From Variovorax davisae (lineage in GTDB: Bacteria; Pseudomonadota; Gammaproteobacteria; Burkholderiales; Burkholderiaceae_C): a stretch of DNA of 64,000 bases. Both the position numbers and the translations under genes were made by a program. The stretch spans positions 248,001 through 312,000 of the forward strand of contig NZ_JASZYS010000007.1 of assembly GCF_030316845.1 (NCBI RefSeq), given 5' to 3'. How positions within the stretch are numbered: the first letter of the stretch is position 1; each line of letters begins with the position of its first letter. The notes under the pieces were generated by a model, which was not told the origin of the DNA, ran no database searches, and saw only the letters and a program-made list of their open reading frames with translations. This document shows, in pieces, positions 47,026 through 49,621 of this stretch.

Positions 47026-47586
47026 CTAGTGGGCCATGACGAGCGGCGCGACGTCCCGCCCCTCGGCCTGGGCGATCAGCCGGGCCGTGGCGTGGGCGGC
47101 CATCTCCAGGCGCCGGACGTCGCGCTCGTCCAGATGGGGGCAGGCCGCGAAGCTGAAGCCGCACAGCATGCCGTACAGCGTGCCGTCCGACAGCCGCACC
47201 GGTACGCCGATATGGGCGCCGAGCGCCTCGTAGTAGAGGGGAAGTCCGTAGTCCGAACGGACACTGGCAACATCCGGCGTCAAGCAGGGCATCCGGCCGT
47301 CGACGATCCGCTGGCAGATGGTTTCGTCGAGGGCGTGGCCTTCCCCCGGCTTGATGACGGCGTCCTCGGTCCTCGAGGCGATGTGGCGGAACACGCGGGC
47401 GCCATCGATGAATTCGCCGATGAAGACCACCTCCAGCTTGAGCTGCTCGCGCACCACGCGCAGCAGGCTGCCGATCGAGACCTCGATCAGCACGCTGTCG
47501 CGCAGGTCGGCGTCGGCCGTCACGGCGGCCAGCCGCGTCGCCCAGTCGTCCGGCGCTTCCGGGCTGGTTTCGGGAATCGTTTTCAT
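47026..47586 (-). CDS. GAF-domain protein
   Basis: This 186-residue protein is built almost entirely of one GAF domain: LRVVREQLKLEVVFIGEFIDGARVFRHIAS, then GEGHALDETICQRIVDGRMPCLTPDV, and GVPVRLSDGTLYGMLCGFSF. GAF domains bind small ligands or tetrapyrroles; several cysteines (in ETICQRI, MPCLT, GMLCGF, AACPH) could be ligands or redox-active, but this is open. No output domain is present, so it may act on a partner protein. It follows the MerR/TPR gene by 43 bases on the same strand. Confidence 0.82.
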   Translation of the reverse strand: MKTIPETSPEAPDDWATRLAAVTADADLRDSVLIEVSIGSLLRVVREQLKLEVVFIGEFIDGARVFRHIASRTEDAVIKPGEGHALDETICQRIVDGRMPCLTPDVASVRSDYGLPLYYEALGAHIGVPVRLSDGTLYGMLCGFSFAACPHLDERDVRRLEMAAHATARLIAQAEGRDVAPLVMAH

Positions 47587-47629: not shown

Positions 47630-48472
47630 TCATTTGTCCTGGAGGCGTCGATAGGCGCTGAAGTGGCGGATGGCCTTCTTCGGGTCGCCCAGGTGATCGT
47701 GCAGGCGCGCGGCGTTGAAGTGGGCGTCGCCTATGCCGGGGTCGAGGGTGAGGCAGCGGTCGTAGGCCAGCAGTGCCTCGCGGTAGCGCTCCAGGTCTTC
47801 CAGCGCCACCGCGCGGTTGAAATGCAGCAGGGCGTCTTCGCGGCACCGGGCGAGCGCCGTGTCGTAGAGCGCCACGGCTTCCGCGCAGCGGCCCGATTCG
47901 CAGAGCAGGGCGCCGAGGTTCAGGTAGCCGTCGGCATGCGTCGGCGCGCTGTCGAGCAGCCGCCGGTAGCCGCGCTCCGCCGCTGCCGGGTCGCTGGCCT
48001 CGAGAGCCTCGGCCTGCGCGAACAGGGCCTCGGGCGACGACTGGATCAGGGCCGGCGCCTCGGCCGGGCCGCGCTCGACGAAAGCCACCGTGCCGCGCAT
48101 CGCCGCGACATCGAAATCCATCAGCAGTTGGCCCGATTCCGCCGCCCATCGGCTGCCCCTCTCGTGCACGGCGACCTCACTGCCGACGGCGGTGATCCGC
48201 AGCCCGCTCAGCGGCAGCTCCGCCGGCAGCGTGCCCTTGAGCCGCTGCAGCGCGCGCACGATCTTGCGCGTCGGGATGTCGGCCAGTTGCAGCTTGTGGG
48301 CCGTGCGCAGCAGGACGACGTCGCGAAACGAAAAGCGGTATTCGTTGCGCGGTCCGCGCGACGGGCTGACGAAGCCGTGGGCGATGAGTCTGGCGACCGC
48401 GCTGCGCGACAAACCCAGCATCTCCTGGATGCCGCGCAGGGTATGGGTCGCCGGTGGCGGCGACGGGTTCAC
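47630..48472 (-). CDS. MerR-type HTH / tetratricopeptide repeat fusion protein
   Basis: This 280-residue protein starts with a MerR/HTH_17-like winged helix (LRGIQEMLGLSRSAVARLIAHGFVSPSRG, then FSFRDVVLLRTAHKLQLADIP). A middle segment of unknown fold follows, and then about four TPR units (AERGYRRLLDSAPTHADGYLNLGALLCESG, AVALYDTALARCREDALLHFNRAV and two more). It could be a DNA-binding protein with a protein-interaction tail. The start is a GTG whose last bases are shared with the Ku stop (GTGA), so it is translationally coupled to ku. A role with Ku is an inference from this coupling. Confidence 0.78.
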   Translation of the reverse strand: MNPSPPPATHTLRGIQEMLGLSRSAVARLIAHGFVSPSRGPRNEYRFSFRDVVLLRTAHKLQLADIPTRKIVRALQRLKGTLPAELPLSGLRITAVGSEVAVHERGSRWAAESGQLLMDFDVAAMRGTVAFVERGPAEAPALIQSSPEALFAQAEALEASDPAAAERGYRRLLDSAPTHADGYLNLGALLCESGRCAEAVALYDTALARCREDALLHFNRAVALEDLERYREALLAYDRCLTLDPGIGDAHFNAARLHDHLGDPKKAIRHFSAYRRLQDK

Positions 48473-49392
48473 TTTCTCGATCGCGCGCGCGCCGGGGCCG
48501 GGGCGGCGACCTCGGGCGCCTTGGCGCTGGCCCGTTTCACGCCCTTGCGCTCCTTCGAGGCCAGCGGCGTGACCTTGTCGGCGGGCGCCCGCGCGGCGCG
48601 CTGGCCGGTCGTGCCGCCGCGCGCCAGGCTGGCGCGCAGCATCTCGGTGAGGTCGATGATCTGGCCGCCCGCTTCGGCATCGCGCGCCTCGGCCGCGACC
48701 ACCTGCTTGCCGGTGATCTTGGCGTCGATGGCGGCCAGGATGCGCTGTTTCTCTTCGTCGACGTACTGCGTCGGGTCGTAGCTGTCCTCGGCGATCTGGT
48801 CGATCAACTGGAGCGCGAGCTTCACTTCCGCGTCCGAGGGCTGGACCTGCTCGATGTCGAGCTCCTTCAGCGAGCGGACCTCGTCGGCGTAGAGCAATTG
48901 CTGCAGCACCAGCCCGTCTTCGGCGGCGCGCACCTGGACCACGTACTGCTTGCCCTTCCAGGCCCATTTCGCGAGGGCGCAGCGGCCGCTTTCCTGCATG
49001 GCGGCGCGCAGCAGCGAATAGGACTTGGCGCCGCGCTTGTCGGGGGCGAGGTAGTAGGCCTTGTCGTAGTAGATCGGGTCGACCGCCTGCTCCGGGATGA
49101 AGCTCACGATGTCGATCGCATGGCTCGCGCTTTCCTCGACCGCCTTGAGTTCATCGGGCGTGAACAGCACGTAGCGATCCTTCTCGAATTCGTAGCCCTT
49201 GACCATCTCGGTGCGCGCCACGACGGTGCCCGGGTCCTTCTCGGACACGTACTGCTGCTTCACGCGGGAGCCGTCCCGGGTCAGCAGATTGAACCTGACC
49301 GCGCTGCTGCTCTCGGTTGCGGAATACAGCTTGACCGGGATCGAGACCAGGCCGAAACCCAGGGAGAGTGAAGCGATCGAGCGAGCTGCCAT
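48469..49392 (-). CDS. ku: Ku protein, non-homologous end joining
   Basis: Bacterial Ku is a homodimeric ring that binds DNA ends and recruits LigD. The 307-residue protein has the family start IASLSLGFGLVSIPVKLYSATE, then VKGYEFEKDRYVLFTPDEL, FIPEQAVDPIYYDKAYYLAPDK and the C-terminal core DEVRSLKELDIEQVQPSDAEVKLALQLID. After about residue 250 it carries a basic Ala/Lys/Arg tail (KERKGVKRASAKA... RARSRK), a feature known to help bacterial Ku bind or thread on DNA. No ligD is in the window. It overlaps the MerR/TPR gene and follows a DUF3606 gene. Confidence 0.94.
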   Translation of the reverse strand: MAARSIASLSLGFGLVSIPVKLYSATESSSAVRFNLLTRDGSRVKQQYVSEKDPGTVVARTEMVKGYEFEKDRYVLFTPDELKAVEESASHAIDIVSFIPEQAVDPIYYDKAYYLAPDKRGAKSYSLLRAAMQESGRCALAKWAWKGKQYVVQVRAAEDGLVLQQLLYADEVRSLKELDIEQVQPSDAEVKLALQLIDQIAEDSYDPTQYVDEEKQRILAAIDAKITGKQVVAAEARDAEAGGQIIDLTEMLRASLARGGTTGQRAARAPADKVTPLASKERKGVKRASAKAPEVAAPAPARARSRK

Positions 49393-49462
49393 GCGACCTC
49401 CAAGAACGGTGCGACGTGCACCCAGGGTGCGCAGGATGCCACTTTCCAGCGGCTTCGAACAG

Positions 49463-49621
49463 TCATTGCTTGCCCAGATGCACCGCGACCTGCTCGGCCC
49501 GGGGGCCGACGTCCGCCACCGCCTGGCGCAGGGCCTGTTCGCTGACGCCGAGCCGGTCGCACCAGTACTGGATCTCGTGCGTCTGGGTGACATCGATGGG
49601 GTCGTGGACTTCGTCGGACAT
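49463..49621 (-). CDS. DUF3606-family small protein
   Basis: This 52-residue protein fits the DUF3606 family: a short start, then DVTQTHEIQYWCDRLGVSEQALRQAVADVG, which looks like a small helix-turn-helix-like helical unit, and a C-terminal HLGK. AAGGAG precedes the ATG by nine bases. It lies 70 bases upstream of ku on the same strand and could be the first gene of that unit. The function of the family is unknown. Confidence 0.75.
   Translation of the reverse strand: MSDEVHDPIDVTQTHEIQYWCDRLGVSEQALRQAVADVGPRAEQVAVHLGKQ

Follow-up and report, generated by a model that had tools for sequence, protein, structure and literature searches.

A MerR-type HTH/TPR protein encoded beside one lineage of bacterial Ku, a possible partner in end joining

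The window analyzed here, a stretch of 64,000 nucleotides from a contig of Variovorax davisae, contains a ku gene followed directly by a gene for a protein that combines a MerR-type helix-turn-helix (HTH) with TPRs (the HTH/TPR gene; Table 1). As an earlier note on this DNA had described, a DUF3606 gene precedes this pair and a GAF gene follows it, all on the same strand, and the sequence bears out the reported overlap, in which the ku stop TGA (48471-48469) lies inside the GTGA that also holds the GTG start of the HTH/TPR gene. The Ku protein scores 272.4 bits against TIGR02772 (cut-off, 150) over model positions 1 to 259 of 259, which places it in the curated bacterial Ku family over the full model length, and it also matches Pfam Ku (4.4e-48). 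Ku matches number three in the genome (7.18 Mb), one being partial; the four LigD-polymerase matches that exceed the cut-off are all on other contigs, and ligD therefore does not lie beside ku in the window.

Table 1. Features of the ku-HTH/TPR locus, in window coordinates
Feature	Position	Strand	Size or extent	Basis
DUF3606 gene	49463-49621	-	52 aa	PF12244, 3.3e-17
ku	48469-49392	-	307 aa	NCBIfam TIGR02772, Pfam Ku, tree placement
Ku C-terminal tail, K/R/A/P-rich	48472-48621	-	50 residues after core	cut at end of core-profile match (row L163, same gene)
RKGVKR, copy of the tail motif R[KR][PAGST][PAV][KR]R	48532-48549	-		
GTGA overlap, ku stop and HTH/TPR start	48469-48472	-		sequence
HTH/TPR gene	47630-48472	-	280 aa, GTG start	Pfam, AlphaFold model
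MerR-type winged helix-turn-helix	48215-48451	-	residues 8-86	Foldseek and VIA matches
Three-stranded beta element	48113-48214	-	residues 87-120	model strands 92-96, 99-104, 107-110
Four TPRs	47633-48040	-	residues 145-280	model helices, conservation
GAF gene (GAF_2)	47026-47586	-		PF13185, 7.7e-9

Several TPR families match the HTH/TPR protein over their Pfam cut-offs (best, 2.5e-15), and MerR_1 falls just under its own (5e-4; 20.6 bits against 21.6). An AlphaFold model based on 56 aligned sequences, picked from 66 nonredundant ones plus that of the window, has a mean pLDDT of 90.8 and a pTM of 0.57 and shows a MerR-type winged HTH followed by three short strands and then, after a linker of low confidence (residues 121 to 135), by four TPRs, whose eight helices at residues 147 to 279 are arranged as tandem 34-residue TPR pairs. 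For the front part, which modeled alone had a mean pLDDT of 75.9, Foldseek gave no match under 0.001, with MerR-type proteins (GlnR, TnrA, RacA, and others) in the top rows; VIA superimposed residues 1 to 86 on GlnR (4r4e_A; Z = 11.1; rmsd of 2.2 over 81 residues), and by these fold matches the region is a MerR-type winged HTH. MerR-type HTHs mostly regulate transcription; the fold neighbors include RacA, a named chromosome-anchoring protein, and CbpM, solved with a J-domain, neither of which is an ordinary regulator. The HTH/TPR protein shares with GlnR, TnrA, RacA, and CbpM the fold of residues 1 to 86, but where those have an effector domain or a long coiled coil, it carries the beta element and four TPRs: in the models, which are of monomers, the HTH ends in a helix at residues 68 to 81 followed by beta strands, with no long MerR dimerization coiled coil. 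The beta element region is also matched by profile in shorter, ParA-linked proteins (see below).

Over the 56 sequences, the median pI is 11.7 for the HTH and 5.3 for the TPR part. The repeats carry an Asn ladder (N185 in 96%, N219 and N253 in 100% of the 56 sequences) and an acid ladder (positions 158, 192, and 225 in 93%, 226 in 86%, and 259 in 75%), both with a spacing of 33 to 34 residues, i.e., one per repeat; going by the usual TPR layout, these residues would face the groove. Asn at the ladder position is common in TPRs in general, and the Asn ladder has a known role in OGT. The OGT-type superhelix provides the best Foldseek matches of the full model (26 to 27% identity over about 135 columns) and shares the Asn ladder, but the HTH/TPR protein has only four repeats and no catalytic domain.

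To survey the distribution of the gene, we scanned species genomes with a profile built from ten homologs, which confirmed at least 468 relatives, of which the best 80 were kept; the resulting locus set is therefore biased toward closer relatives and silent on the others. The earlier note had considered that the pair might occur only in this strain or that homologs might be unlinked to ku elsewhere. Instead, among the best 80 of at least 468 relatives, 79 have ku immediately upstream in the same orientation, and the sole exception (L099) is on a contig that starts about 235 bases before the frame; order and strand are thus kept in 79 of 79 testable loci from three phyla. These linked records come from beta- and gammaproteobacterial groups of Pseudomonadota, Anaeromyxobacter oryzae (Myxococcota), and two Acidobacteriota bins (L108 and L113), which are possibly misassigned, and the nearest named relatives among the 80 are from Variovorax. 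Across 61 genomes (that of the window plus 60 relatives), there are 30 long homologs, of which 29 follow ku and the other is at a contig end. A 4-base overlap of the GTGA type is possible at 30 of the 79 ku-linked loci (from the best 80 of at least 468), and dN/dS of the HTH/TPR gene is 0.16 and 0.13 against its two nearest relatives, showing that it is under purifying selection; on both counts, the arrangement is more than a product of chance.

In 379 genomes drawn evenly from the order Burkholderiales, a profile of the HTH-beta region found 20 copies in 19 genomes, all of them adjoining ku. Ku matches were present in 56 of the 379, one of them below the family cut-off; the HTH domain occurs in 19 of these 56 versus none of the 323 genomes without Ku (Fisher P = 8e-18, ignoring kinship), and the other 37 Ku genomes have no match to the profile. 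A draw of 321 genomes of the class included 21 with a profile match, 10 with Ku and 11 without. In the neighborhoods of 20 of these 21 (G986 left out), all nine strong matches (E < 1e-30) adjoin ku, 10 weak matches are in short frames, nine of which are followed by a ParA-like ATPase, and one further match is a BRCT fusion in a Ku cluster. In a phylum draw of 299 genomes, the listed matches that reach the HTH part were confined to the window's genome and G313, which has two HTH/TPR copies, both adjoining ku; the other listed matches are limited to the TPR part plus a short stretch ahead of it, starting at position 120 or later. The class and phylum draws therefore indicate that the HTH-beta head is common to another family and that the HTH-beta-TPR form, in the places examined, is found near Ku only.

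LigD relatives are present in 42 of the 80 loci (best 80 of at least 468), and 77 of the loci could be classified: LigD adjoins the pair on the same strand in 30 (27 with the order LigD-Ku-HTH/TPR and 3 with Ku-HTH/TPR-LigD), is elsewhere in the stretch in 9, and is absent within the flanks in 38, there being among the 80 loci 15 with little sequence before ku and 6 with little after HTH/TPR. Relatives of HTH/TPR were also found in 34 plasmid records, in one case incomplete, and in no viral contigs or phage records. In the four plasmid records that were opened, ku is directly upstream each time, and a LigD or LigD-module gene lies within 3 kb downstream in three, in one of them on the other strand. 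On a Cupriavidus metallidurans plasmid typed as conjugative (L271), ku, HTH/TPR, ligD, and genes for a NucS-domain protein, ImuA, and a Y-family polymerase are clustered.

The linkage follows one lineage of Ku. We computed a quick tree (LG+G4; SH-aLRT support only) of 203 distinct Ku cores from the linked loci and most unlinked Ku of the two samples, with four short pieces dropped and identical rows merged. One branch (support, 99), to which the Ku of the window belongs, comprises 109 rows, 108 of which are linked to HTH/TPR; the unlinked row (L238) ends at a contig start, and in its genome an HTH/TPR gene stands at the end of another contig. Outside this clade are 91 unlinked and 3 linked rows (3/94), some of the unlinked ones with long branches and uncertain positions. 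In the three linked rows outside the clade, all from Variovorax (L064, L066, and L069), an other-clade Ku precedes an intact HTH/TPR gene, and in a Pfam search each genome has two Ku, both of the other clade; the HTH/TPR gene can therefore outlive the linked-clade Ku, since these genomes keep the gene and no such Ku was found in them. The second, other-clade ku of these genomes is beside ligD (L309 to L311), and no HTH/TPR gene was found near it in the 8 kb fetched, so Ku-LigD pairs without HTH/TPR exist in HTH/TPR-bearing genomes. As relatives have both kinds of Ku around the gene, these three loci likely arose by loss of the linked-clade Ku with retention of its neighbor. Tandem Ku of two clades stand in one cluster in L251, L263, and L264, with the order Ku, HTH/TPR, other-clade Ku in the latter two. 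Ku and HTH/TPR distances correlate at 0.81 over 70 loci, which may reflect common descent only.

Linked-clade Ku proteins tend to share a basic motif in the C-terminal tail, R[KR][PAGST][PAV][KR]R. It is present in 76 of 107 linked-clade tails versus none of 91 other Ku tails, with 1.2 expected in shuffled linked-clade tails; these counts leave out tails of <20 residues, count kin separately, and are descriptive, because the motif was picked after the tails had been viewed and several forms had been tried. A narrow form occurs in 26 of 109 linked-clade tails and a looser one in 92 of 107 linked versus 17 of 91 other tails (20.7 and 21.5 expected in shuffles). Many of the linked tails without the strict motif have related forms (e.g., SKGAKRAP), and others have none. 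The motif is also missing from the Ku tails beside HTH/TPR in L064, L066, and L069.

A variant of the cluster was encountered in a genome of the window's class (L301), where Ku is followed by a 304-aa ATP-dependent ligase and then by a 355-aa BRCT-HTH-beta-TPR fusion, in which BRCT (26.8 bits against a cut-off of 21.3), MerR_1 (31.8 bits), and TPR are all over their Pfam cut-offs; the Ku tail here is without the basic motif. The 24 genomes examined from its family, which are the same 24 as those from its order, contain one full-length copy of the fusion and three short matches to the BRCT part in frames of 604 to 697 aa, a length at which they are probably NAD-dependent ligases; no copy was found in plasmid records. 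Of the shorter HTH-beta proteins (L291 to L300; open frames of 164 to 244 aa), nine of the ten have the gene for a ParA-like ATPase behind their own. They match the HTH-beta profile (E of 6.6e-13 to 1.8e-18), but the three of the ten that were Pfam scanned have no TPR, and their ten genomes have no Ku match. The one ATPase that was Pfam scanned (L293) has a C-terminal AMPK1_CBM domain, and the set is possibly a partition-like or carbon-storage system without a name.

Taken together, linkage, co-occurrence, clade specificity, co-clustering with LigD, and the BRCT fusion make it quite likely that the HTH/TPR protein has a role in end joining, and the gene, standing beside ku, often with ligD, and linked across distant taxa, is a probable component of bacterial NHEJ clusters. 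The earlier note had suggested a regulator or accessory factor of end joining; linkage, LigD, and the BRCT fusion uphold the assignment to end joining, and of the two roles, that of an accessory partner of Ku appears the more probable. We thus prefer, at a probability of a little under one half (about 0.48), the reading that the protein is a dedicated partner of one Ku lineage that acts in end joining itself. It is based on the near-constant pairing with the Ku clade, the frequent presence of LigD, purifying selection, and the domain layout. Fold neighbors outside ordinary regulation (RacA and CbpM) and the weak dyad test described below also count in its favor. The mechanism, as suggested by charge and conservation, would have the basic C-terminal tail of Ku, presumed to be disordered, lie as an extended peptide in the acidic TPR groove, while the basic HTH-beta head, on its flexible linker, would bind DNA near the broken end and help Ku to load, to bridge, or to hand over to LigD. 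In loci with translational coupling, the protein would be kept in step with Ku. Against this reading stand the absence of the strict motif from 31 of 107 linked-clade tails and from the Ku beside the BRCT fusion, as well as the retention of the gene beside motif-free other-clade Ku in L064, L066, and L069, the Ku-LigD pairs that lack HTH/TPR in those genomes, and the 37 of 56 Ku genomes of the order draw with no profile match. Moreover, by analogy with other species, the function of the tail may be no more than binding to LigD or DNA: in PMC9638933, the tails of Mycobacterium tuberculosis and Bacillus subtilis Ku are reported to do so, and the extended C terminus of M. tuberculosis Ku is described as varying between species and helping to recruit LigD. 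The M. tuberculosis data would fit a lineage-specific tail partner and equally a role of the tail with LigD only.

The main rival to a dedicated Ku partner is an autoregulator, i.e., a transcription factor of the NHEJ genes whose HTH would bind the ku/ligD promoter and be switched by Ku or another peptide bound in the TPR groove, giving feedback on the Ku level. The MerR-type winged HTH with its conserved basic residues and the location of the gene immediately after ku, frequently with an overlap, agree with such a role, retention beside other-clade Ku would fit it, and TPR sensors fused to HTHs exist in the RNPP proteins. Yet no dyad was clearly common to 73 upstream regions of loci from the best 80 of at least 468, although this is a weak test and an operator may exist. 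In this set, the best outlier, CCGA-N5-TCGG, occurs in 9 of 73 regions versus 0.6 expected, but 5 of the 9 are in the close-kin groups L065/L068/L070 and L104/L111, at varying distances from the start, and with each kin group counted once, 6 remain, which we did not consider a clear signal given the roughly 4,350 dyads tried; the commonest dyad, GCGC-N7-GCGC, was found 11 times versus 4.5 expected, with a maximum of 10 for any dyad in 30 shuffles. The lack of a long dimerization coiled coil in the monomer models may also speak against a regulator, the BRCT fusion fits repair better, and a regulator would not need such strict adjacency to its target; we consider this explanation unlikely.

Rather improbable is a stability or assembly factor, whose TPRs would shield the basic tail of free Ku from DNA or proteolysis until a break occurs: the acidic TPRs, the basic tail, and the frequent translational overlap suit it, but the basic HTH head and the BRCT fusion would be left unexplained. 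A hitchhiking gene, carried along with ku on plasmids or islands without any part in end joining, is very improbable, as its presence beside ku on plasmids is outweighed by the constancy of order and strand across three phyla, by purifying selection, and by the failure of the GAF and DUF3606 neighbors to be kept.

The window's Ku belongs to the same curated family as that of two-component (Ku plus LigD) NHEJ, and LigD adjoins many of the related pairs; the system differs in having a conserved HTH/TPR gene behind the Ku of this clade. As a tentative extension of the dedicated-partner reading, bacterial end joining might exist in two forms, Ku-LigD and Ku-LigD-HTH/TPR, the latter with a third protein that would read the Ku-tail motif and hold DNA, as a functional counterpart, of independent origin, of the eukaryotic accessory NHEJ factors. 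These include XRCC4, XLF, and PAXX, which the HTH/TPR protein would resemble in the proposed bridging of Ku and ligase, a likeness of role. In the available text of six papers (PMC7719229, PMC1378119, PMC11936186, PMC9638933, PMC5862659, and PMC9226535), the bacterial machinery is given as Ku and LigD and the HTH/TPR gene is not named; one of them adds Sir2 as a regulator in Mycobacterium and refers to 20 extra domains in Ku and LigD in its supplement. A literature search, with subscription papers outside its reach, found no paper on the ku-HTH/TPR pair. Accounts of bacterial NHEJ usually give the pathway two proteins, and HTH/TPR may be an overlooked third part; a gene that tracks a whole Ku clade on chromosomes and large plasmids in three phyla would go some way to account for the differences in Ku tails among lineages. 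If this is true, the protein would offer a defined factor, easy to test, through which ends are bridged or joining is controlled, and genome editing by end joining in Burkholderiales might require it in addition to Ku and LigD.

TPR-only pieces of 49 to 51 residues, with 49 to 65% identity to the TPR part of the window's protein, are found at G000:C13, G023:C39, and G023:C75, and in the 4- to 17-kb stretches fetched around them (L151, L307, and L308) there was neither an HTH front nor a Ku nearby; they may be remnants. One of them, L151, is in the window's own genome (C13:95386-95556 and 95670 onward), is broken, with one stop inside, and adjoins a LigD gene. Contig C23 of the same genome carries partial Ku and LigD pieces, which suggest decayed NHEJ clusters. 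Many weaker TPR-only matches from the 61-genome and phylum searches were classed together as general TPR proteins rather than inspected one at a time.

DUF3606 and GAF also flank the pair in the two nearest relatives (L258 and L251). In the wider set (best 80 of at least 468), GAF is found in none of the 80 loci and DUF3606 in one (L050) or two (L050 and L059), depending on the method, the first being at a second, other-clade Ku and the other >4 kb from the pair. Neither is kept beyond the nearest relatives, and we rejected both as parts of the system; they are passengers outside the conserved unit. L251 has the order DUF3606, other-clade Ku, linked-clade Ku, HTH/TPR, GAF, and because an other-clade Ku stands there between DUF3606 and the linked-clade Ku, the DUF3606 gene of the window may be a leftover of such an arrangement. 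Among Variovorax, DUF3606 is also close to ligD in L156 and to the other-clade ku in L050, which perhaps reflects a common stress regulon.
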